This document shows positions 19,473 through 45,072 of a DNA stretch of 47,010 nucleotides, piece after piece. This stretch comes from Sinomicrobium pectinilyticum. Lineage in GTDB: Bacteria > Bacteroidota > Bacteroidia > Flavobacteriales > Flavobacteriaceae. The stretch lies in assembly GCF_003725735.1 (NCBI RefSeq), contig NZ_RJTM01000160.1:1-47010 (forward strand), read 5' to 3'. How positions within the stretch are numbered: the stretch's first letter is position 1; each line of letters begins with the position of its first letter. The position numbers were made by a program, and so were the translations under genes. The notes beneath the pieces were generated by a model that ran no database searches, had not been told where the DNA came from, and saw nothing but the letters and a program-made list of their open reading frames with translations.

Positions 19473-19516
19473 CAAATTTGTCGTTTACTGATATCTTATT
19501 TTATGACAGAGGTCAT
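19473..19516 (-). promoter_or_regulatory. norB promoter with ATGAC-N4-GTCAT activator site
   Basis: The dyad ATGAC-AGAG-GTCAT occupies 19503-19516. CAAATTTG at 19473-19480 reads as CAAATTTG on the minus strand too, a 7-of-8 match to TAnnTTTG. The start would be near 19467, so the dyad is centred about 42 bp upstream, the class II activator position for Crp/Fnr proteins. A short dyad GTTTG-N6-CAAAC lies in the leader near 19427-19442. Confidence 0.65.
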
Positions 19517-19548
19517 ATTTGCTAAAAACCGGTGGTGGGATGGTGAGG

Positions 19549-19596
19549 CGGGGAGACAATGAGATGGGGAGACAATGAGACGGGGAGATGCGGAGG
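19549..19596. repeat. Purine-rich tandem repeat, 16-bp period, about three copies
   Basis: CGGGGAGACAATGAGA (19549-19564) is followed by TGGGGAGACAATGAGA (19565-19580) and a diverged third unit CGGGGAGATGCGGAGG (19581-19596). Just upstream lie further G-runs (GGTGG, TGGG, ATGG). The plus strand is almost purely purine over this stretch, between the norB promoter and the end of the Rrf2 gene. Confidence 0.75.
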
Positions 19597-19666
19597 CAGT
19601 GAGGTAATTGGTTTAAAATATTCCGGGTGGGCCGGTCCTCGGGGTGGTTTCCGAAAGCGGGAAGGA

Positions 19667-20101
19667 TTATAATTTTAAGAAGGTTTTGCCCTCGCTCAAA
19701 TCACTCATCAGTTCTTCGAGATTGGTCTGTTCGAACAGGTTCTTCAGATTTTCCTTAACCGGTTTGTATTTAAAATGGAAAGGACAGGGATTTGTTTCGC
19801 TGCATTCGTGCAGTCCCAGGCTGCACCGGGTAAACAGTCCGTCCCCGTCTATTGCCGTAACCAGGTCTTTCATACTTATGGTACTGAGATTGGCCGTGGC
19901 CATTTCAAACCCGCCTCCGGATCCTTTTACAGAAGTTACGATATTATGCTTAACAAGCTTTTGCAGTATCTTGGCCGTAAAGGCTTCGGGGGATTTGATC
20001 TTCCGGGATATATCGCGCAGGCTTACCCGCTGTTTTTTCCGGGTCTCGGAAGCGATGTACAGGGTGGCCCTGATACCGTATTCACAGGATTTTGATAGCA
20101 T
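19667..20101 (-). CDS. Rrf2-family regulator with iron-sulfur cluster cysteines (NsrR-like)
   Basis: The start is the ATG at 20101 (MLSKSCEYGIRATLYIA), the standard Rrf2 opening; the longer frame to 20326 runs into nrdG. The product is 144 residues. It has a winged helix (VSLRDISRKIKSPEAFTAKILQKLVKHNIV, wing VKGSGGGFEMA) and Cys93, Cys100 and Cys106 spaced C-x6-C-x5-C, the spacing of NsrR/IscR-type cluster ligands. Between norB-ric and the anaerobic ribonucleotide reductase genes, an NO-sensing role is the most economical reading. IscR-like iron-sulfur homeostasis is the alternative. A palindrome over its own -7 element suggests autoregulation. Confidence 0.85.
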   Translation of the reverse strand: MLSKSCEYGIRATLYIASETRKKQRVSLRDISRKIKSPEAFTAKILQKLVKHNIVTSVKGSGGGFEMATANLSTISMKDLVTAIDGDGLFTRCSLGLHECSETNPCPFHFKYKPVKENLKNLFEQTNLEELMSDLSEGKTFLKL

Positions 20102-20118
20102 TTGGCGGGACTTTACCG

Positions 20119-20134
20119 CAAAAATACGTATTTT
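20119..20134 (-). promoter_or_regulatory. Rrf2 gene promoter and overlapping palindromic operator
   Basis: CAAAAATA at 20119-20126 is a perfect minus-strand TAnnTTTG (-7), predicting a short leader before the ATG at 20101. AAAATACGTATTTT at 20121-20134 is a perfect 14-bp palindrome overlapping it. The AT-rich dyad fits Rrf2-family operators in general form. The assignment to this regulator is inference from position. Confidence 0.55.
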
Positions 20135-20198
20135 ACTAAGACTCTTTTTATCGCAGTAAATACATCTGTAAAAAAAATCAGCAATTCCAGGAAAATAA

Positions 20199-20909
20199 TT
20201 AACCTCTGATCTGTATAGATAACGGTGATGCTTCGAGTGCTGCCAGATCAATTCCTTCCCTGTCGGGTCCCGGTTCACCCAGAGTGAGAACGTTCCGCTG
20301 AAACTTCTGCAAATAATATACACCACTATATCCTTTTTGAGCTAAAAAAAAACTCATTCTCAGAAGATCGTGCGATTGTAGTAAACCGCTGTGAACAGTA
20401 GTACGGACCTCAAAGGTTACGGATCCATCCAGCAACAGGTTCAGGCATTTACTGAAGTCTTCAAAATATTCACCTCCCGTAACCGCTATTTCCCGATCGG
20501 GCAGGGCCTTGAAATCCAGCGAGACATAATCGGCCAGGGACTCTTCTACAAGAGCTTTCAACACGTCGGGACGACTGCCATTGGTATCCACTTTGATCAA
20601 AAACCCCAGGTCCTTTACACGGGAAGCAAATTCAAGAACTGAAGTATGCAGAAGGCACTCTCCCCCGCTCAAAACAACGCCTTCCAGAAGCCCTCTCCGG
20701 CTTCGCAGGAAATCCAGAGCTCCGGCATAGGTCAGACGCCCTTTCCCCAGGACAATATCGGGATTATAGCAGTACGAACACCGCATATTGCATCCGGCAA
20801 ACCATATAATACAGGCCGGATAACCCGGATAGTCAAGCAGGGTAAACGGGGTGATGCTGTATATGTTCCTAATAGCCTTCCCTGAAGTGTGTACGCTGCT
20901 TGTGTTCAC
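20199..20909 (-). CDS. nrdG: Anaerobic ribonucleotide reductase activating enzyme (radical SAM)
   Basis: The 236-residue radical SAM protein has the cluster motif C-x3-C-x2-C in CNMRCSYC, followed by VVLSGGECLLH, the glycine-rich SAM-binding segment. It opens with the family-typical SITPFTLLDYPGYPACIIWFAGC. NrdG generates the glycyl radical on class III ribonucleotide reductase from SAM and reduced flavodoxin or ferredoxin. The only plausible start I see is GTG at 20909, which lies inside the upstream glycyl-radical gene in another frame (41-base overlap), implying translational coupling. Confidence 0.88.
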   Translation of the reverse strand: MNTSSVHTSGKAIRNIYSITPFTLLDYPGYPACIIWFAGCNMRCSYCYNPDIVLGKGRLTYAGALDFLRSRRGLLEGVVLSGGECLLHTSVLEFASRVKDLGFLIKVDTNGSRPDVLKALVEESLADYVSLDFKALPDREIAVTGGEYFEDFSKCLNLLLDGSVTFEVRTTVHSGLLQSHDLLRMSFFLAQKGYSGVYYLQKFQRNVLTLGEPGPDREGIDLAALEASPLSIQIRG

Positions 20910-21030
20910 CTTTTTTTCCTATGTTAAAGCTTTCTATCGGCCTGTGATACCCCATGACCCTGGTGTATATCAAACATCGGGTCCGCAATGCTGTCTGTGA
21001 ATTCAGTTCGTGTTGTTCTGCTGTTTTCAT
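20869..21030 (-). CDS. Stand-alone glycyl radical domain of class III ribonucleotide reductase (53 aa)
   Basis: A 53-residue frame starts with ATG at 21030 and ends with TAG at 20869. Its core is TRCLIYTRVMGYHRPIESFN followed by IGKKGEHKQR. This matches the C-terminal glycyl-radical segment of NrdD proteins, usually ...YSRVVGYxRPVxxWNxGK..., with Gly27 as the predicted radical site. The large NrdD gene just upstream ends after its zinc-site cysteines and lacks this segment, so the domain is supplied in trans, much as YfiD supplies one to pyruvate formate-lyase. The stop of nrdD and this ATG are 81 bases apart with in-frame stops between, so it is not a simple frameshift. It is too short for many gene finders. 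Confidence 0.8.
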   Translation of the reverse strand: MKTAEQHELNSQTALRTRCLIYTRVMGYHRPIESFNIGKKGEHKQRTHFREGY

Positions 21031-21111
21031 GGATGTGTTTTTTAATGCTCCGTTTGGGAGCGGTTATTCAATAAAAATTTAAATGTGTAGCATAACTTTC
21101 CGGTACAGGAT

Positions 21112-23226
21112 TTATGCTGTACTTTCCTGTTGATGGTTATGAATCCGGTCGAGCAAAATGTCGTCGCATTTCGGACAAAATTCATGTTCCCCGTTCAAAT
21201 AGCCGTGAACCGGGCAAATACTGAAGACCGGGGTTACCGTGATATAGGGAAGCTTAAACCGGGTCAGTACTGTTTTTACAAACTGCCTGCAAGCCTCCGG
21301 TGAACTGATCTTTTCGTTCATATACAGGTGTAACACCGTTCCCCCGGTATATTTGCATTGCAATTCGTCCTGCATCAATAAGGCTTCAAACGGGTCGTCG
21401 GTAAAATCAACCGGCAGTTGTGAACTATTGGTGTAATAGGGATTTTCCGGTGTCCCGGCCCGGATGATCTCCGGGTAGCGCTTCAGGTCTTCTTTGGCAA
21501 ACCTGTATGTCGTTCCTTCTGCCGGTGTGGCTTCCAGGTTATACAGGTTCCCTGTTCTCTCCTGGAATTCCTGTAACCTGCCCCGTATGTGATCCAGGAT
21601 TCCGGCCACCATTTCATGTCCGAAATTATCCGTCAGGTCATTCCGGTCACGGGTATAGTTCCGGACCATTTCGTTCATTCCGTTCACCCCTATGGTCGAA
21701 AAATGGTTCCTGAAGTGAGACAGGTAACGTTGGGTATACGGATAGAGCCCCCTGTCAAACATTTCCTGTATAAAAACCCTTTTTTTCTCCAAAGTGGACT
21801 GTCCCAATCCCAACAGCCGGTCCAGGGCCTGGTATAATTGTCTTTCTTTTCCCGCATATAAGTATCCCAATCGTGCCATATTAACAGTGACTACCCCGAT
21901 ACTTCCCGTCATTTCGGCGCTGCCGAACAGGCCGTTTCCTCTTTTCAACAACTCCCTCAGGTCCAGTTGTAACCGACAGCACATACTTCGTACGGCATTG
22001 GGCTGGTAGGCATTGGGATTGGGCACTTTGTCACCGTTTTCATCTGTCAGATACTGGCTGCCTATAAAGTTCTGGAAATAGGATGACCCTATTTTGGCAG
22101 TGTTCTCAAAAAGTATGTCCGTGTTTTCTCCGTACCAATCAAAATCTTCCGTGATATTCACGGTAGGAATGGGAAAGGTAAATGGCTGGCCCTGTGCATC
22201 ACCTTCGGTCATTACCTGGTAGTACGCCTTATTAATGACCTGCATTTCTTTCTGAAAATGCCGGTACTGCAGGTCGGTTACCCTATCCACTCCCCGCTCC
22301 CATGCCATTCGGGAAATTTCAGCATCGTCATTTCCCTCAAACAAATGCCGGTCCCGGCGGGTGGGGATCTGGGCCTTTAAATCTTCGGGTACTACCCAGT
22401 CCAGGGTAATATTGGTGAAGGGCGACTGTCCCCAGCGTGCCGGTACGTTCAGGTTATAGACAAAACTGCGTATGGCTTTCAGCACTTCTTCATAAGTAAG
22501 CCGGTCCTTAAATACATAGGGAGCCAGGTAAGTATCGAATGAACTGAAAGCCTGTGCTCCTGCCCATTCACTCTGTAATATACCCAGAAAGTTAGCCATT
22601 TGGCCCAGGGCCTCCCTGAAATGATTAGGCGGACGACTTTCCACCCGGCCGCGGACACCGTTGAACCCCTCATTGAGCAGAACCCTTAAACTCCAGCCCG
22701 CACAATAACCGGTGAGACAATCGAGGTCGTGTATATGAATATCCCCGTTCCTGTGAGCGTGCCCCTCCTCTTTCGAATAAACCTGGTCCAGCCAGTAATT
22801 GGCAATCAACTTTCCCGCTACATTATTTATCAATCCCGCATTGGAATATGACGTGTTGGCATTAGCATGAATCCGCCAGTCTGTTTGCTCTATATACTCC
22901 GCCACCGTCTGGGAACTGTCTACATATGTGGTATGCTCGCTGAACCCATGTGTATGATCCCTTTGCATCTTACGCGTATGCCTGTACAACATAAAGGAGC
23001 GCATCACCTCAAAATAACCCGCTTCATACAACTCTTTTTCAATGGCATCCTGTATTTCCTCCACCGATAAGATGCTTTCCGTATCCAACCGACTCATCAA
23101 TCTTTTATATATTTCAGGGTCAGGCGATCGCCGTACACTGGCAAAAGCTTTTTCTATGGCTATCTCAATTTTGTACCCTTCAAACGGTACATAAGTTCCT
23201 GTCCTTTTGATAACTGAATTTTTCAT
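21112..23226 (-). CDS. nrdD: Anaerobic (class III) ribonucleoside-triphosphate reductase, catalytic part without glycyl radical domain
   Basis: The 704-residue protein starts with an ATP-cone (VIKRTGTYVPFEGYKIEIAIEKAF, residues ~4-90), the allosteric domain. Then comes the ten-stranded barrel core (LDCLTGYCAGWSL, NVPARWGQSPFTNI, and RSMCCRLQLDLRELLKRGNG with Cys416/417 as thiyl candidates). Near the end is a zinc-site segment with Cys671, Cys684 and Cys687 (CPVHGYLNG...CPKC). The protein ends 17 residues later, with no RVxGY glycyl-radical motif, which is encoded by the next gene. Together with nrdG it makes deoxyribonucleotides without oxygen, as a denitrifier needs. Confidence 0.92.
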   Translation of the reverse strand: MKNSVIKRTGTYVPFEGYKIEIAIEKAFASVRRSPDPEIYKRLMSRLDTESILSVEEIQDAIEKELYEAGYFEVMRSFMLYRHTRKMQRDHTHGFSEHTTYVDSSQTVAEYIEQTDWRIHANANTSYSNAGLINNVAGKLIANYWLDQVYSKEEGHAHRNGDIHIHDLDCLTGYCAGWSLRVLLNEGFNGVRGRVESRPPNHFREALGQMANFLGILQSEWAGAQAFSSFDTYLAPYVFKDRLTYEEVLKAIRSFVYNLNVPARWGQSPFTNITLDWVVPEDLKAQIPTRRDRHLFEGNDDAEISRMAWERGVDRVTDLQYRHFQKEMQVINKAYYQVMTEGDAQGQPFTFPIPTVNITEDFDWYGENTDILFENTAKIGSSYFQNFIGSQYLTDENGDKVPNPNAYQPNAVRSMCCRLQLDLRELLKRGNGLFGSAEMTGSIGVVTVNMARLGYLYAGKERQLYQALDRLLGLGQSTLEKKRVFIQEMFDRGLYPYTQRYLSHFRNHFSTIGVNGMNEMVRNYTRDRNDLTDNFGHEMVAGILDHIRGRLQEFQERTGNLYNLEATPAEGTTYRFAKEDLKRYPEIIRAGTPENPYYTNSSQLPVDFTDDPFEALLMQDELQCKYTGGTVLHLYMNEKISSPEACRQFVKTVLTRFKLPYITVTPVFSICPVHGYLNGEHEFCPKCDDILLDRIHNHQQESTA

Positions 23227-23269
23227 CTTATTCTGTTTAATCCCGTGCTGTTTCGCTATGGGTTTAATA

Positions 23270-23307
23270 CAAATTTACCCAAAACAAGACTTAAATATCC
23301 GATTTAA
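23270..23307 (-). promoter_or_regulatory. Probable nrdD promoter
   Basis: CAAATTTA at 23270-23277 is a perfect minus-strand TAnnTTTG, predicting a start near 23264 and a leader of about 38 nt. TTAAAT-N5-ATTTAA at 23291-23307 is an inverted repeat upstream of it. I see no ATGAY-N4-RTCAT site here. Confidence 0.45.
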
Positions 23308-25191: not shown

Positions 25192-25210
25192 TTTTTAATT
25201 TTTAATAGTG

Positions 25211-27286
25211 CTAATTGATCTTATAGGAAATATTGAAAAATAAGTTGCGCCCCATTCTCGGGATATTATTCCAATCCGAATATGTGGAATAATACCTGTC
25301 AAAGATGTTTTCTATACCCGCTTTGGTATATAATCGGTTGCCGGAGATATAAAATGTTTTTCCCAGCGCCATTGAAAATATCGTATAGGCGGGTGTCTGG
25401 TCTTCACCGAACCCCCGGTTAAAGTTGACCTGTTTTCCCGCACCACCGGCACTTACTTCCCCGTAAAAGCTCCTTGTATCGTATTTCAGGAAGGATTGAT
25501 AGGCCCACGGACTGATAAAGGGCAGATCCCGGTTTTGGTTGTCTGTTCCCCGGTGCCAGGATATGGCACCGGACCAGGTTAATCCGGGAGCAATTTTATA
25601 CTCGCTATTGAATGATAAATTAACGATATCTGCATATCTCAGGTTGGTATATATTCTCACACCGTCCGCACCTATGGTCATGGTACTCAGCGAAGAATCC
25701 GTTTTCCCGATAATATAATTATGTATTCGGAAGGCATTTCCTTCAAAGCTTAATTTAAACCCGGGCTGGGTCATGGATATCCCTGCATTTAATTCCATCG
25801 ACCGCTCATTTTCTAAGCCCGGATTACCTACATAATCATGGTTGTCAAAACTATTAAAGAGGTAGAACCCGTAACCTTCCGAAACCGATGGGGCCCTGGT
25901 AGCATAGGCCAGTCCGAAATTGAGCTGAAAAGATCGTAATTGTTTGCTGTACTGTGTTGCTATACTGGAAAGAAAACGCGTTTGTGACGCCGCTGCATCC
26001 GGGTAAAAAATGCGGAGGCTGTTTAATCCGAATTTATCCGCTACACGATTACCCTGTACTGTGACCCTTGCGGAGACTTTTAAGGAACTCTCTTTAAAAT
26101 TGATAATGTCCTCCAGATACAGACCGGTATTAAGAGTACGGACATCGGGCCAGGTGAGCATAAACATGGAAGCCTCCCCGCGATTGGCCGGGTACATCGT
26201 CATCTCTGCCAGGGATTTATTATAAAAACCATCCCATTTGAACAAAAGACGGTGTTTCCCGGTTTTTAAAGCAGTCCGGGAATAAAAACCGTAAGTATCG
26301 CTCCAGCCGGGCATATCCATTCGTACGGGGACATTCGGCCTTTGGGAATCATCCATCACATGTGTAATCGTGTTGTAATACAACTTTGATTCCCAATGAT
26401 GCAACACACCCAGAGTATCCTGCTCATAACTTAAAGAGGTGATCACCGCCCTGGCCAGGGATACATCCATAGGCAAAGCAGGATATCCGACATCATTAGC
26501 CTCATCATAGACCAGGGTTGCAGCTAATTTTTTTCCCGGTCCCAATTGATATCCGCCGTTTAAGGAAATATTGTACTTTTCATATTGTGAAAAATGAACT
26601 TCTTCACCTCCTCCGGCACTGTAGTTTCCTGCCTTACGGTATACAATATCCCCGTCTATATAGTATTGGTCTTTGGAAAAATTAATATCCGCTCCTATAA
26701 TTTTCTGTTCGTTGTTGGTTTCAAAACCGTTTTCCAGGCTTATGATAAAAATATCTTCTTTAAACCCCGCTTTATCAATCTTCAGATCAATGGCTCCACC
26801 TATACTTACACCATATTCCGCCCCTTGCTGCCCGGATGCAATGTGTGCTTCGGAAAGATTGGATACATCTACATAAGAAGTAATGGGATCCATTTTATCC
26901 GTACAGGCACCGAATACCCGCATTCCGTCTATCGTGACGGAAAGCCGCTCGGAAGACATACTGTTCAGTGTGGGTTCCCATGCATAGGCGCCCCGCTTTA
27001 CCATATTCACTTTCCGGGCGGAGGTCAGATATTCATCAAGAGAAGACAAGGGTTTGGCCTGCCCGGGATCGCCGGACTGCGTTCTGTCGGATATCACTAC
27101 AACCTCTTCCAGGTAAACCGGCAAGATCGTATCTCTTTCACCTCCCTCTTCCCTCTGTGCATGGACGGGAAAAGAAATAAACAGAACTCCTCCAGAAAAC
27201 CACAGCAGCCATTTCCTCGAGAACAATGGGCCTAGTAAAATATACGGGAATCTGCCTGCCGGTATAATAATTTTCATTAGAAGCAT
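25211..27286 (-). CDS. TonB-dependent outer-membrane receptor, OprC/NosA-like copper importer
   Basis: The 691-residue protein has a signal peptide ending near VHA, a plug domain and a 22-strand barrel ending in a terminal aromatic-type strand (MGRNLFFNISYKIN). The plug contains VTIDGMRVFGACTDKMDPITSY. C128 and M132 make the C-x3-M pair that, in Pseudomonas OprC, binds copper, and MDP-TSY is typical of OprC/NosA. NosA is an outer-membrane copper receptor needed for N2O reductase maturation. Divergent from the nos cluster and driven by the same type of activator site, it probably supplies copper to NosZ. It forms an operon with the downstream lipoprotein gene. Confidence 0.88.
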   Translation of the reverse strand: MLLMKIIIPAGRFPYILLGPLFSRKWLLWFSGGVLFISFPVHAQREEGGERDTILPVYLEEVVVISDRTQSGDPGQAKPLSSLDEYLTSARKVNMVKRGAYAWEPTLNSMSSERLSVTIDGMRVFGACTDKMDPITSYVDVSNLSEAHIASGQQGAEYGVSIGGAIDLKIDKAGFKEDIFIISLENGFETNNEQKIIGADINFSKDQYYIDGDIVYRKAGNYSAGGGEEVHFSQYEKYNISLNGGYQLGPGKKLAATLVYDEANDVGYPALPMDVSLARAVITSLSYEQDTLGVLHHWESKLYYNTITHVMDDSQRPNVPVRMDMPGWSDTYGFYSRTALKTGKHRLLFKWDGFYNKSLAEMTMYPANRGEASMFMLTWPDVRTLNTGLYLEDIINFKESSLKVSARVTVQGNRVADKFGLNSLRIFYPDAAASQTRFLSSIATQYSKQLRSFQLNFGLAYATRAPSVSEGYGFYLFNSFDNHDYVGNPGLENERSMELNAGISMTQPGFKLSFEGNAFRIHNYIIGKTDSSLSTMTIGADGVRIYTNLRYADIVNLSFNSEYKIAPGLTWSGAISWHRGTDNQNRDLPFISPWAYQSFLKYDTRSFYGEVSAGGAGKQVNFNRGFGEDQTPAYTIFSMALGKTFYISGNRLYTKAGIENIFDRYYSTYSDWNNIPRMGRNLFFNISYKIN

Positions 27287-27361: not shown

Positions 27362-27405
27362 CAAATATAGAAGGTGCCCGAGATGAAAAATATGACTAAA
27401 GTCAC
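27362..27405 (-). promoter_or_regulatory. Promoter of the copper receptor operon with Crp/Fnr-type site
   Basis: ATGAC-TAAA-GTCAC at 27392-27405 differs from the local consensus only in the last base. CAAATATA at 27362-27369 is a perfect minus-strand TAnnTTTG. The predicted start near 27356 puts the dyad centre about 42 bp upstream, the class II activator position. The leader is about 70 nt. Confidence 0.65.
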
Positions 27406-27609
27406 CTTAAGGATAAAAACGGATTTTTCCCTCCGTTCCCGGTAAAGGATTTGAAAATTTCCATGTCGTATATTCTTTTAAACAGAAACTTTATCCTTTC
27501 CTCTTATAAATCATCTCTTTTGAGATAATAGGGTTTAAAAAATAGCACAGCACAGCTTATCCCACTCATTAATAAAAGAATACATAAATGTCCTTCCCTG
27601 CATCGGAAT

Positions 27610-27652
27610 ATGACAGAAATCATATTTTCCCCATATACCGTCCCATACCTTT
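27610..27652 (+). promoter_or_regulatory. Promoter of the nos gene cluster with Crp/Fnr-type site
   Basis: ATGAC-AGAA-ATCAT lies at 27610-27623, and TACCTTTA, a 7-of-8 -7 element, at 27645-27652. A start near 27658 gives a centre-to-start distance of about 41.5 bp. The ATG of the cytochrome gene follows at 27685. An upstream dyad ATCTC-TTTT-GAGAT near 27515 may be a hairpin. The rest of 27406-27609 holds no gene that I can see. Confidence 0.65.
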
Positions 27653-27684
27653 ACACCAAATTATACAAACAAAATACACTGCAT

Positions 27685-28188
27685 ATGAGTACGATTAAAA
27701 AAACAATGTTATTACTCTTCGGTATCCTGCTAACAGCATGCGGAGGGACTCCAGAAAAAAAGGAAAAGTTCACTTATGAAAGAACTCCTGCTCAAAAGGA
27801 GACCAAAACAGTGAATAAGGTTGCCGGAAATAAGGCCACCGGAGATTTAACAGACTTGGACAACAAAGGTATAGGTCCGGTCAAAAATATAGAATTAGGC
27901 ACCGATATCGATCAGGATATGGCCAAAGCAGGCCAGGCACTGTTTAAGGAAAAATGTATGTTGTGCCATAAACCGGATAAAAAATTCATCGGGCCTGCAC
28001 CGAAAGGAATTTTGGACCGCCGCTCGCCGGAATGGGTTATGAATATGATTTTAAATCCTGAAGTCATGGTAAAAGAAGATCCTATTGCAAAGCAATTGCT
28101 GATAGATCATAACGGCTCACCAATGGCCAACCAGGGGCTTACTGAAGAAGAAGCAAGAAAGGTACTGGAGTATTTCAGGACACTTTAA
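27685..28188 (+). CDS. Lipoprotein c-type cytochrome, probable electron donor in the nos cluster
   Basis: The start is the ATG at 27685 (MSTIKKTMLLLFGILLTACGG), giving a lipobox Cys. The longer frame to 27610 would begin inside the activator site. The mature protein has one heme site, CMLCH (C-x2-C-H), and a probable axial Met in NGSPMANQGL, the pattern of a class I cytochrome c domain of about 90 residues after a charged linker. As first gene of the unit, 44 bases before nosZ, it likely delivers electrons to NosZ. Clade II nos clusters commonly carry such cytochromes. Confidence 0.85.
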   Translation: MSTIKKTMLLLFGILLTACGGTPEKKEKFTYERTPAQKETKTVNKVAGNKATGDLTDLDNKGIGPVKNIELGTDIDQDMAKAGQALFKEKCMLCHKPDKKFIGPAPKGILDRRSPEWVMNMILNPEVMVKEDPIAKQLLIDHNGSPMANQGLTEEEARKVLEYFRTL

Positions 28189-28232: not shown

Positions 28233-30194
28233 ATGAAACTAACAATCAAAAGTTTACCTTCCCTAGTTCTAATAGCCGTGATGTTTACCGCTTGCAACAG
28301 TAGCGGGACTTCCAATGGCAATCGCGGGGCCCTCGCCTCTACTGCGGCAGAAAAAGTGTATGTCGCTCCCGGGGAGCACGATGAATATTATGCCTTCTTT
28401 TCCGGCGGATATAGCGGAAACCTTACCGTATATGGATTGCCATCGGGAAGAATGTTTAAGGAAATTCCCGTTTTTTCGCAATTTCCCACCAACGGGTACG
28501 GGTATTCCGAAGAAACCAAACCCATGTTAAACACCTCTCATGGGTTTGTTCCCTGGGATGACCTTCATCACCCCGATATTTCACAAACGAACGGGAAACT
28601 TGACGGAAGGTGGATCTTTGTAAACGGTAACAATACCCCCCGTATTGCAAGAATAGACCTTAAGACCTTCGAAACCGAAGAGATCATCGAAGTCCCTAAC
28701 AGTGCAGGGAACCACAGTTCGTCCTTTATTACGGAAAACACAGAATACGTTGTGGCCGGTACCCGTTTTTCAGTACCTGTGCCCCAGCAGGATATTTCCA
28801 TAAAAGAATACAAGGGACATTTTAAAGGCGCACTGTCTTTTATTTCCGTAGAACCGGAAACCGGGAGGATGAACATGAAATTCCAGGTTATGATGCCCGG
28901 GTTTAATTACGACCTGTCACACCCCGGGCGCGGGAAATCGCATGGCTGGTTTTTCTTTACCACCTATAATACCGAAGAGGCCAGTACACTATTGGAGGTC
29001 AATGCTTCACAAAACGATAAGGATTTTATTGCGGCCATAAACTGGAAAAAGATCGAGGAGTATGTAAATAACGGAGGCGGTACAAAAATGCCTGCCAATT
29101 ATGCCCATAATGTATATGAGCATGCAACTCACGGTGCCAAATCCACCATGCTGAAAGAAGTCTTAACGGTAGATCCCACCGAAGTACCGGGTGCCGTTTT
29201 CTTTCTCCCCACACCGAAATCACCCCACGGGTGCGATGTAGACCCGACAGGTGAATACATTATAGGAAACGGAAAACTCTCCGCTGATCTGACCGTTCAC
29301 TCCTTTGATAAAATGATCGCCGCCATCGAAGCAAAGAAATTTGACGGGGAAGCATACGGAATTCCTGTATTGAAGTTCGAGGACGTCCTGGCAGGTCAGG
29401 TAAAAAGCGGCGGGTTAGGGCCCCTGCACACCGAATTTGACGGAAAAGGAAATGCTTATACTACATTTTTTATCTCTTCGGAACTGGTAAAATGGAATGT
29501 AGAAACCCGCGAAGTCATAGACCGACAGCCCAACTATTATTCCGTAGGTCATGTCATGATCCCCGGCGGAAACTCCGCCGCACCTTTCGGAAAATATGCT
29601 GTTGCCATGAATAAGATCACGAAAGACAGGTATCTTCCCACAGGCCCGGAACTGGAACATTCTGCTCAACTGTTTGATATCAGCGGGGATAAAATGGAAC
29701 TATTGCTGGACTTCCCAACACACGGAGAACCCCATTACGCTGCCGGGATACCCGCAGAGATACTGGCACCGAAATCACAAAAAATTTACCGGTTGGAAGA
29801 CAATAAACACCCATTTGCAGTACTCAACGGTGAAGATACCCGTATAGAACGCAACGGGAATGAAGTTCACGTATATATGTCTATGATACGCAGCCACTTT
29901 ACCCCGGATAATATAGAAGGAATAAAGGTGGGTGATAAAGTATATTTTCATATCACCAATCACGAGCAGGACTTTGATGTACCACATGGCTTTGCCATGA
30001 TCGGTGCCAACAATGCGGAGTTGCTCATTATGCCCGGACAGACCAAAACCCTGGTGTGGGAACCCAAACAGGTAGGTGTGTGGCCCTTCTATTGTACCGA
30101 TTTCTGTTCTGCCCTGCACCAGGAAATGCAGGGATATGTACGGGTTTCACCGGCAAATTCCAATATTGAACCAAGCTGGTCTCTCGGGGAATAA
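28233..30194 (+). CDS. nosZ: Nitrous oxide reductase, clade II (Sec/lipoprotein type)
   Basis: The 653-residue enzyme reduces N2O to N2 in the periplasm. The N-terminus is a Sec-type signal with a lipobox (LIAVMFTAC), not a twin-arginine signal, marking clade II. The beta-propeller has the CuZ histidine segments DDLHHPD, SHGWFFFTTYN, YAHNVYEHATHG, SPHGCDVDPTGEY, GPLHTEFDG and SVGHVM. The C-terminal cupredoxin domain binds CuA through WPFYCTDFCSALHQEM (C621, C625, H629, M632: C-x3-C-x3-H-x2-M). A strong terminator follows the gene. Confidence 0.97.
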   Translation: MKLTIKSLPSLVLIAVMFTACNSSGTSNGNRGALASTAAEKVYVAPGEHDEYYAFFSGGYSGNLTVYGLPSGRMFKEIPVFSQFPTNGYGYSEETKPMLNTSHGFVPWDDLHHPDISQTNGKLDGRWIFVNGNNTPRIARIDLKTFETEEIIEVPNSAGNHSSSFITENTEYVVAGTRFSVPVPQQDISIKEYKGHFKGALSFISVEPETGRMNMKFQVMMPGFNYDLSHPGRGKSHGWFFFTTYNTEEASTLLEVNASQNDKDFIAAINWKKIEEYVNNGGGTKMPANYAHNVYEHATHGAKSTMLKEVLTVDPTEVPGAVFFLPTPKSPHGCDVDPTGEYIIGNGKLSADLTVHSFDKMIAAIEAKKFDGEAYGIPVLKFEDVLAGQVKSGGLGPLHTEFDGKGNAYTTFFISSELVKWNVETREVIDRQPNYYSVGHVMIPGGNSAAPFGKYAVAMNKITKDRYLPTGPELEHSAQLFDISGDKMELLLDFPTHGEPHYAAGIPAEILAPKSQKIYRLEDNKHPFAVLNGEDTRIERNGNEVHVYMSMIRSHFTPDNIEGIKVGDKVYFHITNHEQDFDVPHGFAMIGANNAELLIMPGQTKTLVWEPKQVGVWPFYCTDFCSALHQEMQGYVRVSPANSNIEPSWSLGE

Positions 30195-34295: not shown

Positions 34296-35234
34296 ATGAC
34301 CGACAATAATTTTTACCACAAAGAGATAAAAAGGCTCCTGAAAGAAAAAAACGCACTTCTCCTGGCCCATTGCTACCAGGACAAGGCTATCCAGGACCTT
34401 GCCGACTTTGTGGGGGACAGCCTGGAGCTCGCCCGTAAAGCCGCCCGGACAGAAGCTTCTATTATTGTTTTTGCCGGGGTATATTTTATGGCGGAAACTG
34501 CGAAAATCCTGAACCCGGATAAAAAAGTACTCCTCCCGGACCTTTCCGCAGGCTGTTCTCTTGCAGATCATTGCCAGCCCGAAGAGTTTGCCGGTTTCCG
34601 CGCCAGGTATCCCGGGCACCAGGTGGTAAGCTATATAAACACCAGCGCCGGTATAAAGGCTATAAGCGACTATGTATGTACTTCCTCTAATGCCGAAGTG
34701 GTCATACGCTCCATACCCGAAGACCAGCCCCTCATTTTTGCACCTGATAAAAATCTCGGAAGTTATCTCAATAAAATAACAGGGCGAAATATGATATTAT
34801 GGGAAGGTTCCTGTATAGTACACGAAGCTTTTTCTCTGGAAAAGCTGATACAATTATATCAGAAATGTCCGGAAGCAAGGATCGTGGTGCATCCCGAATC
34901 CGAAGCATCCGTATTGCGGATTGCACACTTCATAGGTTCGACCTCGCAGATCCGGAAATACATCCGGGAAAGCAAGGCAACCTCTTTCATTATAGGAACG
35001 GAAGCAGGCATCATACACCAATTGGAAAGAGAAGCTTCCGGCAAGGAATTCATTCCGCTTCCGTCCCTCGAAGACAACAGTTGCGCCTGTAGCGAATGTG
35101 CCTTTATGAAACTGAATACCGTAGAAAAACTATACCGTTGCCTGCTGGACGAAACCCCTGAGGTGATCATAGATACAACACTACTGGAAAAAGCCCTCCT
35201 CCCTATCCGGAAAATGTTAAACCTGTCCAGATGA
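34296..35234 (+). CDS. nadA: Quinolinate synthase
   Basis: NadA condenses iminoaspartate with dihydroxyacetone phosphate to quinolinate, using an oxygen-sensitive [4Fe-4S] cluster with an open iron site. The protein has HCYQDKAIQDLADFVGDSLELAR, FAGVYFMAETAKILNPDKKVLLPD, AGCSLADHC, YVCTSSNA and CSECAFMKLNT, which hold the cluster cysteines. I prefer the ATG at 34296 (MTDNNFYHKEIKRLL); an in-frame GTG at 34275 is possible. It follows nosY by about 60 bases and its stop overlaps the nadB start by 4 bases. Confidence 0.94.
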   Translation: MTDNNFYHKEIKRLLKEKNALLLAHCYQDKAIQDLADFVGDSLELARKAARTEASIIVFAGVYFMAETAKILNPDKKVLLPDLSAGCSLADHCQPEEFAGFRARYPGHQVVSYINTSAGIKAISDYVCTSSNAEVVIRSIPEDQPLIFAPDKNLGSYLNKITGRNMILWEGSCIVHEAFSLEKLIQLYQKCPEARIVVHPESEASVLRIAHFIGSTSQIRKYIRESKATSFIIGTEAGIIHQLEREASGKEFIPLPSLEDNSCACSECAFMKLNTVEKLYRCLLDETPEVIIDTTLLEKALLPIRKMLNLSR

Positions 35235-37935: not shown

Positions 37936-37960
37936 AAAACTTGCCGAACGATCCGGCGGG

Positions 37961-38221: not shown

Positions 38222-38224
38222 ATA

Positions 38225-38752
38225 CTAGACGGTTTTATCCTGTTTTTCTTCTCTTACATATACTTTTCCTTCCTTTATCACCACTTCCAGCCGTGGAAGA
38301 GATCTGGGCGGCGGGCCCTGTAATACCTCCCCGGTATCGGCACTAAAGAACCCGTGGTGGCAGGGGCATTCAATTTTTCCCAGGTCCTCCCGGTATCGGA
38401 CAGCACATGTCAGATGAGTACATTTTTGTTCAAAGGCCCGCCATTCACCTTCTTCCAGATGAATGAGAATATAGGGAATAATCTCATTCCCTCGGATCTC
38501 GAACTGGAACATCTCCCCTACGGCCACTTCATCCGCATTACAGACAAAATGTTCACCCTCCAATGGTTTTGAAGGAAAAGCCAGCGCCCTGATCACAATA
38601 ACACCGTTGCCCAGTGCCAGTGCCCCCGAAAGCAGTCCGAGAAATTTTGCAAATTCTCTGCGGTTCACATGGGTTGCCTGTTCTTCACTTATCGGAAAAT
38701 CACTTTTCCAGGCCGGAATTTCCGAACGGTCGTGAGATTCTTTTTTAGCCAT
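38225..38752 (-). CDS. Rieske [2Fe-2S] protein with Tat-type signal anchor
   Basis: I start at the ATG at 38752 (MAKKESHDRSE); the frame extends three codons to a TTG. The ~175-residue protein has NRREFAKFLGLLSGALALG, a twin-arginine-type anchor. The Rieske domain holds CTHLTC and CPCHHGFF (Cys/His pairs of the 2Fe-2S cluster), then PPPRSLPRLEV. Its organisation resembles QcrA-type proteins. Here it sits between a ferredoxin-like subunit and a small membrane protein in a molybdoenzyme operon, so it probably passes electrons between the quinol side and the molybdoenzyme, not within a bc1 complex. Confidence 0.9.
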   Translation of the reverse strand: MAKKESHDRSEIPAWKSDFPISEEQATHVNRREFAKFLGLLSGALALGNGVIVIRALAFPSKPLEGEHFVCNADEVAVGEMFQFEIRGNEIIPYILIHLEEGEWRAFEQKCTHLTCAVRYREDLGKIECPCHHGFFSADTGEVLQGPPPRSLPRLEVVIKEGKVYVREEKQDKTV

Positions 38753-38763
38753 GCTATACAAAT

Positions 38764-39336
38764 TTATCCTACTATTAACTGATGGGTACCTTTGGGCATC
38801 ATAATACTCACCTTGGTATTAACTTCCTCCTTCCCGAACTTAAAGGAGTTTACGGGAACGCTGTCCGGGCGCATCCTTTCGATCTCTTCCCTTGTTCCGT
38901 AAAACAGTGCCTGGCTCGGACACACCGTGGCGCACATAGGTTTCTTCCCGGCGCTGGTACGGTCATAGCACATATTGCATTTCATCATCAGTTCCGCTTC
39001 CTCCATTTTTTTAGGCACGCCGAAAGGACATGCCAGAACGCAATTGGAACATCCTATACAGCGGGAAGTATTGGCAGAATGAACCACTCCGAATTCGTCC
39101 TTGTGAATGGCATCGGCCGGGCATACGTTAGCGCAGGCAGGGTCTTCGCAATGCATACATACCTGTACGGTAGTCTGTACGCTTTCGGCCCGGTTTACAT
39201 AATTGACATGTATCATGCTTTCCTGTCCGTTGGTTTCACATTCCGCACAGGCCATTTCGCAGGCATGGCAACCTATACAGCGTTGCATATCTACAAAAAA
39301 GGCCATTTCCTGGTGGTAATCGGTTACTGGCATCAT
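38764..39336 (-). CDS. Four-cluster ferredoxin-like electron-transfer subunit
   Basis: The 190-residue protein has cysteine groups for four [4Fe-4S] clusters: [44 protein letters not shown] and [11 protein letters not shown]...CATVCP. This is the NrfC/PsrB/HybA subunit pattern. No signal peptide is seen. Between the molybdoenzyme and Rieske genes it is the expected wire from the molybdenum subunit. It lies 43 bases after the molybdoenzyme stop. Confidence 0.92.
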
Positions 39337-39379
39337 ATTTATCTTTTATGGTTGATATCTATATTATCTTCTTTACACT

Positions 39380-41599
39380 TCACAGTCCGCTCTGATAGGC
39401 AGTTTTCGTGATGACATCAAGCGCCTTATATCCCATAGGTATCAAACGGCATGCACATACCTTGAACTCGGGTATCTTGGACACGGGATCGAGGCTTCCG
39501 ATGGTCAGCTGATTAGCGGAATGCTTTCCTCCCCAATGATACGGGATAAACACCGTATCTTCACGGATAGTCTCCACTACCTGTGCGGGGAACTCTGCTT
39601 CTCCCCTCCTGGTTTCTACCCGCACCAGGTCCCTGTCCTTTATCCCGTACCGGAAAGCCAGTTTGGGGTGTATTTCCAACAAGGGTTCGGGATACTGGTC
39701 CACGAGTTTGCCTATTCTCCTGGTGGAAGTCCCGCTGAGGTATTGAGATACCACTCTTCCCGTGGTCAGTACTACAGGATATTCTTTGTCCGTAACTTCC
39801 GAGGCCGGTCGGTATGGCACAGGGTTGAAATGTGCTTTTCCGTCGGGCGTTTTAAATTTACGATCTTCCCACAACCTGGGAGTACCGGGATGATCGGGAG
39901 ACGGGCAGGGCCAGAAAACCCCCATATTGTCTACGATCTTCTTATAGGTAATCCCGTAATAATCGGCTGTCCCTCCCCGGGAAGCTATTCTCAGTTCATT
40001 AAATATATCTTCGCTGGAGGCATAACTGAACTTGTCCCCTGCCCCGAGTTTCTCGGCCAGCTCCATGAGTATCTCCCCGTCCCTTCTCGCCATACCGGGG
40101 GGAGTTACTGCTTCATTTATTTTCACTACCCTGCCTTCGGCCGTAGTTACCGTGCCCTCTTCTTCTTCGTGCAACGACCCGGCCATGACGATATCCGCAT
40201 GACGGGCAGTTTCGGAGAGGAAGCTGTCGATACATATATAGAATTCCAGCTTTTCCAGGGCCTCACGAACAAAATTATTGTTAGGCAGCGACACCAGCGG
40301 ATTAAAGCAGATCGATATCAGGCCTTTGATCTCTCCGCGGTGGATCGCTTCGATCTGCTCATAGGCGGTAAGGCCCTTTCCGGGCATATCCTTTTCATCG
40401 ATCCCCCATACCTCTGCTATATATTTCCGGTGTTCCGGATTGGTTATATCCCGGTTTCCCGGTAACTGGTCGCATTTATGACCGTGTTCCCTTCCGCCCT
40501 GGCCGTTGCCCTGCCCGGTGATGGTACCGTATCCGCAATAGGGTTTTCCGATACGTCCGGTGGCCAGAACCAGGTTAATACAACTCAACACATTGTCCAC
40601 TCCTTTGGTATGATGTTCTATACCGCGGGCATGAAGCAGAAAACTGGTTTTAGCTTTTCCCCAGAGCGTAGCTGCTTCCATAATCTTTTCCCCGGGAATA
40701 CCGGTCTGTTCCTCTGCCCAATCCAGGGTATAATCCTTTACGGCGGCTATGGTCTCTTCGAATCCGGAAGTATAATTGTTTATAAAATTGTGGTCCAGCC
40801 AGTCGTTGTCCGCGAGAATCTTCAGCATGGCCCCGAACAGGGCCGAATCGCCCCCGGGTCTTACCGGCAGGTGCAGGTCGGCCGTCCTCGCCAGGGGGAT
40901 CACCCGCGGGTCCACAACGATCAGCTTCGCCCCGTTATCCCGGGCCTGCCAGATATAATGCGTTAGTGTGGGAAAGGTTTCGCTGATATTGGCCCCTGCT
41001 ACAATAATAACTTCGGCATGGGCCAGGTCTGCCCAACTATTGGAACTCCTGTCCAGCCCAAAAGCCTTTTTGTTCCCTCCCCCTGCACTCACCATACAGA
41101 GTCTCCCGTTATAATCCAGATTTGCGGTTTTCAGGGCCACCCGGGCAAATTTCCCTATCATATAACTCTTTTCATTGGTAATGGAAACACCGCTCAGCAT
41201 GGCAAAGGCATCATTGCCGTATTTTTCCTGTATCCTCCTGATCTCGCTTACGGTTTTACTCATGGCATGCTCCCACGATACAGGCTCAAATCCCTTGCCT
41301 TCCACTCTTTGTATGGGCCCCAGAAGCCTGTCCGGATGATTGTTCTGCAAATAGCGCTGCACGCCTTTGGGACACAGCCTCCCTTCGTTGAACGGAAATT
41401 CCATCCAGGGTTCGAAACCCGTAACCTTGTTGTCCTTTACTTTCAGTTGTATGCCACATTGCATTCCGCAGTAACAACAATGGGTCTTGACCAGCCTGTC
41501 CGGCTCGTGTGCGCCGTAAAAACCGGATTGCGGGGTATAGGCTTTATGGGGTCCGAATTTTTTTATGAGTTGATCTGTAGCTACCGGAAGTTTTGCCAT
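39380..41599 (-). CDS. Molybdopterin oxidoreductase, nitrate-reductase (Nap/Nas)-like catalytic subunit
   Basis: The 739-residue protein binds a proximal [4Fe-4S] cluster through [12 protein letters not shown]...GRLCPKG. It carries a Mo ligand region [19 protein letters not shown], where R-x-C-M with Cys as Mo ligand is the Nap/NasA pattern rather than Sec/Cys of formate dehydrogenase. It also has [29 protein letters not shown] and a C-terminal molydopterin dinucleotide-binding domain ([17 protein letters not shown]). No Tat signal is present, so a cytoplasmic site is likely. The partners (ferredoxin, Rieske, cytochrome b) make it respiratory rather than assimilatory. Nitrate is the best substrate guess. 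Formate or another oxyanion cannot be excluded. Confidence 0.85.
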
Positions 41600-41620
41600 G
41601 AATATCTTTTTTATCTGTTC

Positions 41621-42676
41621 TTAACCAAAAAAATGTCCTGATTCTTTCCTCGCTTCAAAATGGGCCCTGGCCAGTGCCGACCGTTTTCCTTCCGGGCTCA
41701 GGTCCAGATGGCTGGTACCGTCCTCCTTTCCGAAATTGAAACCCAGTTTTTCTGTTACTTTTTTAAGGTCATCGACATGGATTTGTGCGGCAAATTCTTT
41801 TTTTGTGTGCGGGCATACGGCCATTCCCCTTCTGCTGCCTTCCTTTTTATACAGATTGGCCCCCAGCTGGGCCAGCCTCTGGAAAATGTGGAAAAATTTA
41901 CCGAAGGGCAGCCATACCAGAAAGAGGATAACCGTTATGGCATGGGTCACCGCCATAAACTGGTAGGTCTTTCCTCCCAGAAACGTATAATCATAGGAAA
42001 TACCCAATCCGGTAAGGGATATGGCGATAAGCAGAATAAGCGGTAACCAGTCGTTCCCGAAGGTCTGCGTAGCAATAAGCCCGCCGTTGGTGAACCTTCT
42101 TTTCATCATTATTACCGCCCCGACAGTGACCAGTACGGAACACCATACCAGCCCGTGGAAAGCGATAAAGGCAAGGGTTGACCCTAGTGCGAAAGAGCCG
42201 GCTTCAAATCCGAACAGATAGGCGTAATACGTGGTATCGTCCCCCGGTTTCAGTATAAAGTGTATCCAGCCAAAAGTAAGGGGGATAGTAATGGCAAAAG
42301 CCAGCATACACCCCGTAGCCAGAAGGAAATGTCCTATCCACCGTCTCCTTCCCCGGTAAACCAGGAATCTTTGGAACATAATATTCCGGAAAAATAACCG
42401 TAGGGAACGCAAAAAATACGGAATAAAATGCCGGCTGAAAAGAAACTGCATGCTGCGCCGCCAGTAAAGTCTCGTAGGCGGACGTTGAAGCCATATGGAA
42501 TAGCGATAGGCAATGCCGAAAACAGCAAATATGGTCCCGATGAGATAAGCGATCAGTGCCGGATCGAAATTCTGAAGATTACGGGAACCAACAAGTACCA
42601 GTGCAATCACCAGTACTGCCGCTATAATTGCCTTGATAAGCGCTTTTTTGTTTAATGTTCGGAAAAGTCTGTTCAT
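41621..42676 (-). CDS. Membrane cytochrome b-like subunit (NarI/DsrM-like) of the molybdoenzyme complex
   Basis: The 351-residue protein has about seven membrane helices. Histidines are paired in the membrane-spanning part (WIGHFLLATGCMLAF, LAFIAFHGLVWCSVL, FMAVTHAITVILFLVWLPFGKFFHI), the NarI/DsrM-like quinol-oxidising cytochrome b pattern. The cytoplasmic tail (GMAVCPHTKKEFAAQIHVDDLKKVTEKL) looks like a decayed or modified iron-sulfur extension. It is the first gene of the five-gene operon, 21 bases before the molybdoenzyme start. Confidence 0.78.
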   Translation of the reverse strand: MNRLFRTLNKKALIKAIIAAVLVIALVLVGSRNLQNFDPALIAYLIGTIFAVFGIAYRYSIWLQRPPTRLYWRRSMQFLFSRHFIPYFLRSLRLFFRNIMFQRFLVYRGRRRWIGHFLLATGCMLAFAITIPLTFGWIHFILKPGDDTTYYAYLFGFEAGSFALGSTLAFIAFHGLVWCSVLVTVGAVIMMKRRFTNGGLIATQTFGNDWLPLILLIAISLTGLGISYDYTFLGGKTYQFMAVTHAITVILFLVWLPFGKFFHIFQRLAQLGANLYKKEGSRRGMAVCPHTKKEFAAQIHVDDLKKVTEKLGFNFGKEDGTSHLDLSPEGKRSALARAHFEARKESGHFFG

Positions 42677-42794
42677 TACTATGGGGCTTTAGATGAAACA
42701 TCGACAGGAGACAGTTAAATTTAAGCATTTTAGGACAATATGGCTAACACCTACTCCGAAGAATTACAATTTAAAGCCATTCTAAAGTTTGTAT

Positions 42795-43847: not shown

Positions 43848-43871
43848 TATCAAAAGTTGTTGGTAGCCTAA

Positions 43872-43879
43872 CAAATGTA
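43872..43879 (-). promoter_or_regulatory. -7 element upstream of the TDT transporter gene
   Basis: CAAATGTA reads TACATTTG on the minus strand, a perfect TAnnTTTG. The start would be near 43866 and the leader about 19 nt. I see no ATGAY-N4-RTCAT site at the corresponding distance. Confidence 0.4.
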
Positions 43880-44019
43880 CGATTTTTCTTTGGATGTGTT
43901 AAAGCCCTCTACCTATATACCCGGAAATCCGTCACATCATCAGTTCACTGCTTATTGCGTATGGTATTCCACAAAATCCGGCCATCTTCCTATTTCACTT
44001 CCACTCCGCCGTCGGCATT

Positions 44020-44304
44020 TTAAAATAATACATAGCCGGCAATAACCACTATACTGGCAGACAAGCTTATCAGCAACGTATTAAAAACGAATCTCGGTCT
44101 CAATTGCGCAAGTACGGTGGTATTATAAGTCATCGCTACGGCCACGATGAGAAACAACTGGAGCATATGCCACATACCATAACCGTTCATCAGGATTAGC
44201 ATGGCTGCCACGGAACCCGCGCAACTGGAAGCTATAATACCAATGGTTACGGAAGCATAATACATCTCTTTAAATCTCGAAAAAAGTGTTTGATAGAGTT
44301 GCAT
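44020..44304 (-). CDS. Small membrane protein of unknown function
   Basis: The start is the ATG at 44304 (MQLYQTLFSRFKEMYYAS); the longer frame to 44355 reaches into the activator palindrome. The 94-residue product has three predicted helices (VTIGIIASSCAGSVAAMLILM, MLQLFLIVAVAMTYNTTVL, VFNTLLISLSASIVVIAGYVLF). I do not recognise the family. It has the clearest Crp/Fnr-type promoter in the window, so it is expected to be induced with the denitrification genes. Confidence 0.7.
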   Translation of the reverse strand: MQLYQTLFSRFKEMYYASVTIGIIASSCAGSVAAMLILMNGYGMWHMLQLFLIVAVAMTYNTTVLAQLRPRFVFNTLLISLSASIVVIAGYVLF

Positions 44305-44327
44305 AACCTTTACTTTAATATTTGCTG

Positions 44328-44374
44328 TAAAGGTATCACGGCAGTGTAACGCCACATATGATTTAAATCATATG
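44328..44374 (-). promoter_or_regulatory. Promoter of the small membrane protein with perfect Crp/Fnr-type palindrome
   Basis: CATATGATTTAAATCATATG at 44355-44374 is a perfect 20-bp palindrome containing ATGAT-TTAA-ATCAT (44358-44371). TAAAGGTA at 44328-44335 reads TACCTTTA on the minus strand (7 of 8), the same -7 as at the nos promoter. The dyad centre lies about 42 bp from the predicted start near 44322. Confidence 0.7.
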
Positions 44375-44380
44375 GCCAGA

Positions 44381-44977
44381 TCACCTGTAAAGCTTCCGCT
44401 TAACAATTTTAACTGCCCCCTTCTGTTCCAGGCACTTGCCGGCACGGATCACGGTTTCCACGCGCAGGCCCGTAAGGTCTGCTATCTGCTGGCGGGTGAG
44501 ATTTACTTTAAAGGAAAAGGGGGCCTCCAATCCATATACCTCTTTCTTGAGGTAATCCAGAATACGTAATATACGGTGTTCCGGTTCCTGACCGGACAAT
44601 TCGTTTGCCATAATGGCTTTGTAATATAACCTTTGGGCCAAAGCCCGGCTTATTTTCAGATGTTCTTCGGGATAAGCCACAAGTAACCTAAAAAGACCGG
44701 CCCCCGAAAGCCGGTAAATTCGGGTTCCGGTTAAAGCTTCGGCATTGGCAGGATAGGTTACATCGGCAAATAAGGGAGGTTCTCCGAAACTTTCACCGTC
44801 AGAAAATATTCCCTGAATAAACTCCTTTCCTTCCGAAGTAAAATTGTTCATTTTCACTTTCCCTGAAAGTATTTGATAATAGTTCTGTGCCCTTTGATTT
44901 TCCCTGAAAATCACCTCTCCCTTATCATAAGAAATGAGTTCCGCCCCATTATCCAGAAGTAGATCCGTAGTTATCAT
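44381..44977 (-). CDS. Crp/Fnr-family transcriptional regulator, candidate denitrification activator
   Basis: The 198-residue protein has a cyclic-nucleotide-binding-like beta-barrel (GEVIFRENQRAQNYYQILSG, SDGESFGEPPLFADVTYPANAEAL), a dimer helix and a winged HTH (LTRQQIADLTGLRVETVIRAGKCLEQKG). The recognition helix V-E-T-V-I-R keeps the Glu and Arg that in FNR and CRP contact G and its partner in TGA half-sites, but has Ile where FNR has Ser. No N-terminal cysteine cluster is present, so it is not an FNR-type oxygen sensor. A heme- or NO-responsive DNR-like mode is an option. A matching ATGAT-N4-GTCAT site upstream suggests autoregulation. Confidence 0.88.
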   Translation of the reverse strand: MITTDLLLDNGAELISYDKGEVIFRENQRAQNYYQILSGKVKMNNFTSEGKEFIQGIFSDGESFGEPPLFADVTYPANAEALTGTRIYRLSGAGLFRLLVAYPEEHLKISRALAQRLYYKAIMANELSGQEPEHRILRILDYLKKEVYGLEAPFSFKVNLTRQQIADLTGLRVETVIRAGKCLEQKGAVKIVKRKLYR

Positions 44978-45058
44978 TAATACCAGTTTGTAATTCTTAC
45001 AGGGTCCGCTTCAAGCAGACCGGAAATACAAAGAACACTAACAACCGGGAGCAATACT

Positions 45059-45072
45059 ATGATATTTGTCAT
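45059..45072. promoter_or_regulatory. Crp/Fnr-type site upstream of the crp/fnr gene
   Basis: ATGAT-ATTT-GTCAT fits ATGAY-N4-RTCAT exactly. It is centred about 88 bp upstream of the regulator ATG. The -7 candidate at the class II distance (CAAAGAAC, 45029-45036) matches at only 6 of 8 positions, so whether it activates or represses is open. Confidence 0.6.

Follow-up and report, generated by a model that had tools for sequence, protein, structure and literature searches.

An ATGAY-N4-RTCAT dyad upstream of norB and nos in Sinomicrobium pectinilyticum as a probable family-wide operator of Crp/Fnr type

A 47,010-bp stretch (the window) of the 5.65-Mb genome of Sinomicrobium pectinilyticum (the own genome) carries copies of a dyad, ATGAY-N4-RTCAT, upstream of the nitric oxide reductase gene norB, of the nos genes for nitrous oxide reduction and of a gene for a Crp/Fnr-family regulator. 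A preliminary description of this DNA interpreted the dyads as marking a local denitrification regulon. That reading is partly supported but too narrow. Comparisons of upstream sequences across related genomes suggest that the dyad is very probably a family-wide operator for activators of Crp/Fnr type, serving a general low-oxygen and stress regulon.

Exact matches to the dyad were found in the window at 19503, 27610, 44358 and 45059, and a near copy with one mismatch was located at 27392, in agreement with the preliminary description. No further exact match was present anywhere in the 47,010 bp and, therefore, none lies inside the genes of the window. All four exact dyads were intergenic, as assigned, like all genic and intergenic sites below, by our own codon-based gene caller. 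With up to one mismatch allowed, the window contained 16 matches, compared to a mean of 6.07 in shuffled sequences, and none of 100 shuffles reached 16. A scan of the own genome detected 43 exact dyads versus 24 matches to the reversed pattern, which served as the control. The frequency of once per 262,000 bp originally calculated for an exact match is correct for DNA of equal base composition; the density in the own genome was about one per 131 kb, which predicts 0.36 exact dyads in 47 kb as compared to the four observed (Poisson P = 5e-4). The intergenic proportion of the exact dyads (17/43) was higher than that of the fetched DNA, of which 17.6% was intergenic (P = 6e-4), and than the proportion observed for the canonical form, TTGAY-N4-RTCAA (3/23; P = 0.03). 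With only three intergenic sites, this canonical form was rejected as an operator of the own genome.

At all five window dyads, a sequence resembling TAnnTTTG, the −7 box of the Bacteroidota, was present on the gene side at exactly 36 bp from the dyad start, so that the box begins 22 bp after the dyad. A dyad with a −7 box at this fixed spacing is termed a composite site. The T of the F. johnsoniae promoter box is at −12 (PMC6847099); in this numbering the dyad centre is, therefore, predicted to lie at −41.5. This prediction bears out the distance of about 42 bp from the start previously proposed for four of the dyads and supports their placement at the position of a class II activator. Two-fold symmetry, two 5-bp half-sites and a 4-bp centre likewise correspond to the layout of a Crp/Fnr class II operator. 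In the own genome, a box with up to two mismatches was detected at 15/17 intergenic but at only 1/26 genic dyads, counting the better of the two orientations; chance alone would give about 7% in DNA of equal base composition under the same counting. The sole genic dyad with a box was inside a short reading frame and faced ccoN, whose start is 209 bp past the box. Because of this distribution, the box is considered to divide likely working sites from chance sites.

Conservation was examined in 349 genomes of the same family (Flavobacteriaceae-like), in which matches were obtained for nosZ in 159, for norB in 37 (E <= 1e-50) and for relatives of the window regulator in 53 (E <= 1e-30). Upstream regions were analyzed for 70 nosZ loci, consisting of the 50 highest-ranked matches (the best 30, then ranks 31 to 50) and 20 loci hand-picked from lower in the list. 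An exact dyad was present in 65 of these regions (29/30 of the best and 36/40 of the others), and every one of the 65 had a −7 box at the same offset (56 exact and nine with one mismatch). In a comparison of all palindromes with 4-bp arms and a 6-bp centre, ATGA was found in 65 of the 70 regions and the runner-up, AAAA, in 38. Other spacings of the ATGA core (2 to 5 or 7 to 11) occurred in only 0 to 5 regions. The TTGA core was detected in 11, which, together with the small number of intergenic TTGAY sites in the own genome, supports the earlier claim that the motif differs from the TTGAT-N4-ATCAA consensus.

Restriction of the sites to denitrification genes was not supported, as the dyad with its −7 box also fronts stress and oxidase genes. 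The functional linkage proposed for the genes downstream of the window dyads fits norB, nos and the copper-type receptor; the scan of the own genome found sites in front of genes outside denitrification as well. These included hemN (TIGR00538 over cut-off), ccoN (TIGR00780 over cut-off), four universal stress protein (Usp) genes, a further Usp gene on contig C227, and genes for a ribosome hibernation factor (S30AE), an OmpW protein and an MlaE permease. Divergent sites were located at a BrxC/ClpB-like ATPase pair and at a peroxiredoxin/tandem Usp pair. Targets in other genomes were identified for 20 exact composite sites from five genomes, comprising every exact site listed for G059, G143 and G335, together with two out of three for G154 (without its nosZ site) and two out of four for G072. 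The downstream genes were ccoN (three sites), Usp, ferredoxin-dependent 2-oxoacid oxidoreductase and alginate-export-type porin genes (two sites each) and, at one site each, genes for HemN, S30AE, MlaE, YceI, phosphate acetyltransferase, 3-hydroxyacyl-CoA dehydrogenase, a TonB-C protein, a FadL-type porin and a protein with a weak LysR-type helix-turn-helix. The genes at the other two sites (L341 and L348) had no Pfam match. Across the 349 genomes, composite sites with up to one mismatch numbered 4,478 compared to 319 for the reversed control, a 14-fold excess; sites outnumbered control matches in 316 genomes, equaled them in 18 and were fewer in 15. The median was 17 composite sites in nosZ genomes and nine in the 96 genomes that had a strong homologue of FNR and no nosZ match.

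For the reader, the activation and the signal, we infer a scheme in which a Crp/Fnr dimer would bind the dyad centred at −41.5 and recruit RNA polymerase to the TAnnTTTG promoter by class II activation. The trigger would be low oxygen or nitrogen oxides. The regulon would comprise the high-affinity cbb3 oxidase, HemN, universal stress proteins and the ribosome hibernation factor, with nos included in nitrous oxide reducers; norB and the copper-type receptor would be additions in the own genome.

Candidate readers were sought among the Crp/Fnr proteins of the own genome, where 21 cNMP-domain matches were obtained. A recognition helix of the form E-x-x-I-R was common to four Crp/Fnr proteins, with the sequence RVETVIR in the window regulator, ATESLIR in a cysteine-rich FNR homologue and APESFIR in each of two receiver-Crp fusions. 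This helix was kept in 30/30 regulator loci (taken from 55 matches in 53 genomes) and in 30/30 FNR-homologue loci (from the 223 genomes with a match), where it has the form E-S-x-I-R. Cysteines 4, 7, 29, 53, 59 and 106 of the FNR homologue were also kept in all 30 of its loci. The own-genome FNR homologue (C172:55748-56446) has a cNMP domain, and its sequence matches, from residue 3, structures of FNR (5cvr among them). One of the own-genome fusion genes lies between a gene for a PAS histidine kinase with a FixL-matching PAS region (1d06, E 3e-14), on the upstream side, and a downstream Usp gene that has a separate one-mismatch composite site. The 159 nosZ genomes were made up of 118 with a strong FNR homologue, 17 more with a window-type regulator and 24 with neither. 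Ten of these 24 genomes, each at least 99% complete, were scanned, and all ten had at least one receiver-Crp fusion with E-x-x-I-R, the receiver being judged by sequence; G218 also has a fusion with ETAVR. These findings favour a shared operator. We tentatively suggest that one operator may serve three or more kinds of Crp/Fnr protein with this helix (the cysteine-rich FNR homologue, a DNR-like regulator and a receiver-Crp fusion beside a FixL-like kinase), such that oxygen, nitrogen-oxide and phosphorelay signals would converge and lineages would swap the sensor while keeping the sites. Single sites cannot be allotted to single readers from their sequence.

An alternative is that the window regulator is the dedicated reader and that the window motif is a denitrification regulon. 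This protein is DNR-like in that its closest solved relative by sequence is DNR and it has no N-terminal Fe-S cysteines; its nearest named relative is a protein from a Sinomicrobium metagenome-assembled genome (75% identity), and the named relatives indicate the Flavobacteriaceae. A dyad lies on each side of its gene, 11/30 regulator loci have an exact dyad after the regulator, and its relatives co-occur with norB (15/37 genomes, odds ratio 4.9) and nosZ (34/159, odds ratio 2.4). Among the 41 nosZ genomes that lack a strong FNR homologue, 17 have a relative. However, a relative was detected in only 53/349 genomes, as compared to nosZ in 159/349, and among the 30 best nosZ loci, 19 belong to genomes with no detected relative, yet 18 of these 19 keep the exact dyad. 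Identical sites also front stress and oxidase genes. The window regulator, therefore, stands as one candidate reader, as had been proposed, but not as the sole one; that the dyads are private to it was rejected as the only reading, and the alternative as a whole appears rather improbable.

It is also unlikely that the cysteine-rich FNR homologue alone reads all of the sites and that the other E-x-x-I-R proteins bind different DNA. This homologue was detected in 223/349 genomes; nine weak matches (E 9.3e-31 to 3.0e-37) were dropped as probable paralogues, and the remaining 214 genomes had a median of 14 composite sites. A strong FNR homologue was, however, absent from 41/159 nosZ genomes, and the 24 nosZ genomes lacking both this protein and a window-type regulator had a median of 13 composite sites, with an E-x-x-I-R fusion in each of the ten scanned. 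That the dyads are a chance or structural feature without a regulator is very improbable: 26/43 exact dyads of the own genome were genic, 25 of them apparently by chance, but the fixed box spacing at nos and the excess over control in the 349 genomes argue against chance.

Several observations weigh against the dyad being a family-wide Crp/Fnr operator, or against the readers proposed for it. The higher intergenic proportion of the dyads relative to the reversed control (17/43 versus 4/24) had a P value of 0.06. Five of the 70 nosZ regions were without an exact dyad (L135, with one mismatch, and L259, L261, L264 and L272). The FNR homologue scored 75 bits on the NCBIfam Fnr model, for which the cut-off is 228, and its cysteine spacing is unlike that of E. 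coli FNR. Finally, the 82 genomes without a strong FNR homologue, a window-type regulator or nosZ had a mean of 3.9 composite sites versus 0.54 for the control, with a median of 1. As these genomes are still above the control, either there are further readers or some were overlooked in the searches.

The features of the window are given in Table 1, together with the two fusion proteins of the own genome. The start of the cytochrome gene was set at 27685, as the mechanical frame from 27610 would begin inside the nos dyad; cruder gene-caller settings did not choose this start.

Table 1. Dyads, promoter boxes and genes discussed in the text (window positions unless a locus is named)
Feature	Position	Strand	Basis
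RIC-type iron-sulfur cluster repair di-iron protein, adjoins norB	16444..17172	-	TIGR03652 over cut-off
norB, nitric oxide reductase with fused cytochrome c-like domain	17177..19414	-	PF22085, PF00115
Second dyad RGAYA-N4-TRTCY, downstream of predicted norB start site	19435..19448	.	pattern match
Dyad upstream of norB, with -7 box CAAATTTG (19473-19480, 1 mismatch)	19503..19516	-	sequence match
Rrf2-family regulator	19667..20101	-	PF02082, E 1.5e-24; TIGR00738 over cut-off
TonB-dependent receptor, copper-receptor-like	25211..27286	-	best NCBIfam model TIGR01778, under its cut-off
Near-copy dyad (1 mismatch) facing TonB receptor gene, with exact -7 box TATATTTG (27362-27369)	27392..27405	-	
nos promoter dyad, with -7 box TACCTTTA (27646-27653, 1 mismatch)	27610..27623	+	
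Cytochrome c-type protein, first gene past nos promoter	27685..28188	+	PF00034 (on longer frame 27610-28188)
nosZ, Sec-dependent nitrous oxide reductase	28233..30194	+	TIGR04246 over cut-off
Hydrophobic protein of 94 amino acids, unknown function	44020..44304	-	translation
Dyad between regulator gene and 94-amino-acid gene, with -7 box TACCTTTA (44328-44335, 1 mismatch)	44358..44371	-	
Crp/Fnr-family regulator without N-terminal cysteines, helix RVETVIR	44381..44977	-	closest solved structure by sequence DNR, E 8.9e-15
Dyad upstream of regulator gene, with weak -7 box GTTCTTTG (45029-45036, 2 mismatches)	45059..45072	-	
Two receiver-Crp/Fnr fusion proteins	L018:9317-11582 and L048		receiver domain confirmed by Pfam for one

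The norB dyad is not conserved beyond the genus. In 30 norB loci, drawn from 39 matches in 37 genomes, an exact ATGAY dyad was present upstream only in the own genome (1/30), and the dyad was rejected as a norB feature of the family; the norB locus of the sister genome (L149) has a one-mismatch dyad at −110 with a box, CATCTTTG, at the same spacing. A second dyad, RGAYA-N4-TRTCY, was found within 1.5 kb upstream of norB in 23/30 loci, about ten of these copies being within 75 bp of the start and the others farther away. This pattern was also detected upstream in 33/70 nosZ regions (18/30 of the best and 15/40 of the others) and in 1/30 regulator regions. None was present in 60 interior stretches (1.9 kb each) of norB and nosZ loci. 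A further exact copy in the window, at 34379, falls within a predicted gene. The second dyad is likely the operator of a repressor, with the neighbouring Rrf2-family regulator as its candidate reader. This protein reached 31.8 bits on the NsrR model as compared to a cut-off of 182 and is thus not assigned as an NsrR equivalog. Activation of norB by a Crp/Fnr protein combined with release of a repressor triggered by nitric oxide would fit this arrangement.

In 11/30 regulator loci, including that of the own genome, an exact dyad was located within 60 bp after the regulator stop codon. Six of these loci have a box at +36 with up to one mismatch, and in nine the next reading frame encodes a small hydrophobic protein like that of the window, for which no Pfam match was obtained with the longer frame. 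Hydrophobic proteins of 93 to 97 amino acids after the regulator, with an exact dyad in front, were noted in L176, L178, L181, L184, L185, L192, L195 and L199, the last having 107 amino acids from an upstream start. The position of the dyad upstream of the regulator gene suggests possible autoregulation in the own genome, and in the sister genome (L174) an exact dyad lies at −88 of the regulator with a box, CACCTTTG, containing one mismatch. Autoregulation throughout the family was not supported: an exact dyad within 200 bp upstream was present in only six of the 30 loci (L173, L174, L186, L200, L201 and L202), and in L200, L201 and L202 the dyad is at −20 with the sole near box facing away from the regulator. 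In another Sinomicrobium locus (L039), an exact dyad is 164 bp upstream of the regulator, and the near box again faces away. A second group of regulator relatives, which have ATGAGGCAAATCAT or a dyad resembling it near −20, was also observed (L187, L189, L191, L193, L194, L196 to L198 and L200 to L202). Several members adjoin a Rossmann-type gene, and in L191, L196 and L200 to L202 the near −7 box points away from the regulator and perhaps serves a divergent gene.

Other parts of the window were inspected for sites. Between norB and nos, a gene for an anaerobic ribonucleotide reductase, nrdD, and a radical SAM (activase-like) gene (20199-23226) were fronted by no dyad, either exact or with one mismatch. 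A nitrate-reductase-like molybdoenzyme near the regulator (38225-42676), for which the best model was NasC, under its cut-off, is adjoined by 4Fe-4S, Rieske and possible membrane subunits; no exact dyad fronts this region. The promoters of the copper-type receptor and nos are divergent, and a dyad with perfect 5-bp arms, ATCTC-TTTT-GAGAT, separates them at 27513-27526.

The proposed operator would be a variant form of the class II sites known for Crp/Fnr activators. It resembles that of E. coli FNR in the 5-4-5 dyad, the −41.5 class II position, the hemN and cbb3 oxidase targets and the presence in the genome of a homologue with conserved cysteines; hemN and ccoN are typical members of FNR regulons. 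In contrast to the FNR operator, the half-site opens with A instead of T and the promoter is of TAnnTTTG type; in the own genome, TTGAY sites are fewer and lie mainly inside genes. The proteins differ as well, with I in the recognition helix at a position where E. coli FNR has S. DNR and NnrR of Pseudomonas and other bacteria are comparable in that the best solved relative of the window regulator is DNR and its gene is clustered with nor and nos, but DNR has S aligned to the I of the window regulator, and the genes behind the motif extend beyond denitrification. HcpR2 of Bacteroides is another Crp/Fnr-family regulator of nitrogen-oxide metabolism predicted in Bacteroidota. Its consensus is, in contrast, GTAACnnnnGTTAC, and its predicted regulon was limited to hcp in most Bacteroides (PMC1274295), where Rodionov et al. 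(2005) give the site GTAAC-N4-GTTAC for HcpR2 in Bacteroides and NsrR sites in other phyla. The PAS histidine kinase with a region resembling the FixL heme PAS, beside one receiver-Crp fusion, suggests a likeness to FixL-FixJ-FixK, but here a single protein contains both the receiver and the Crp domain, and a Usp gene follows. In other papers, a Crp/Fnr homologue from Flavobacteriales was treated as MalR-like (PMC8510549) and TTGA-N6-TCAA was used for an organism with a clade II nosZ (PMC11539149). A literature search of titles, the beginnings of abstracts and passages, with subscription journals mostly outside its range, found no ATGAY operator and no nosZ operator described for Bacteroidota.

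The Sec-dependent nitrous oxide reductase of these bacteria is a biological sink for a greenhouse gas. With the fixed rule of site plus promoter, a regulon that can be tested is obtained for further genomes in the family, along with a short list of sensors. Furthermore, the change from T to A in the half-site, paired with that from S to I in the recognition helix, would broaden what is known of the helix-to-base code among Crp/Fnr proteins.

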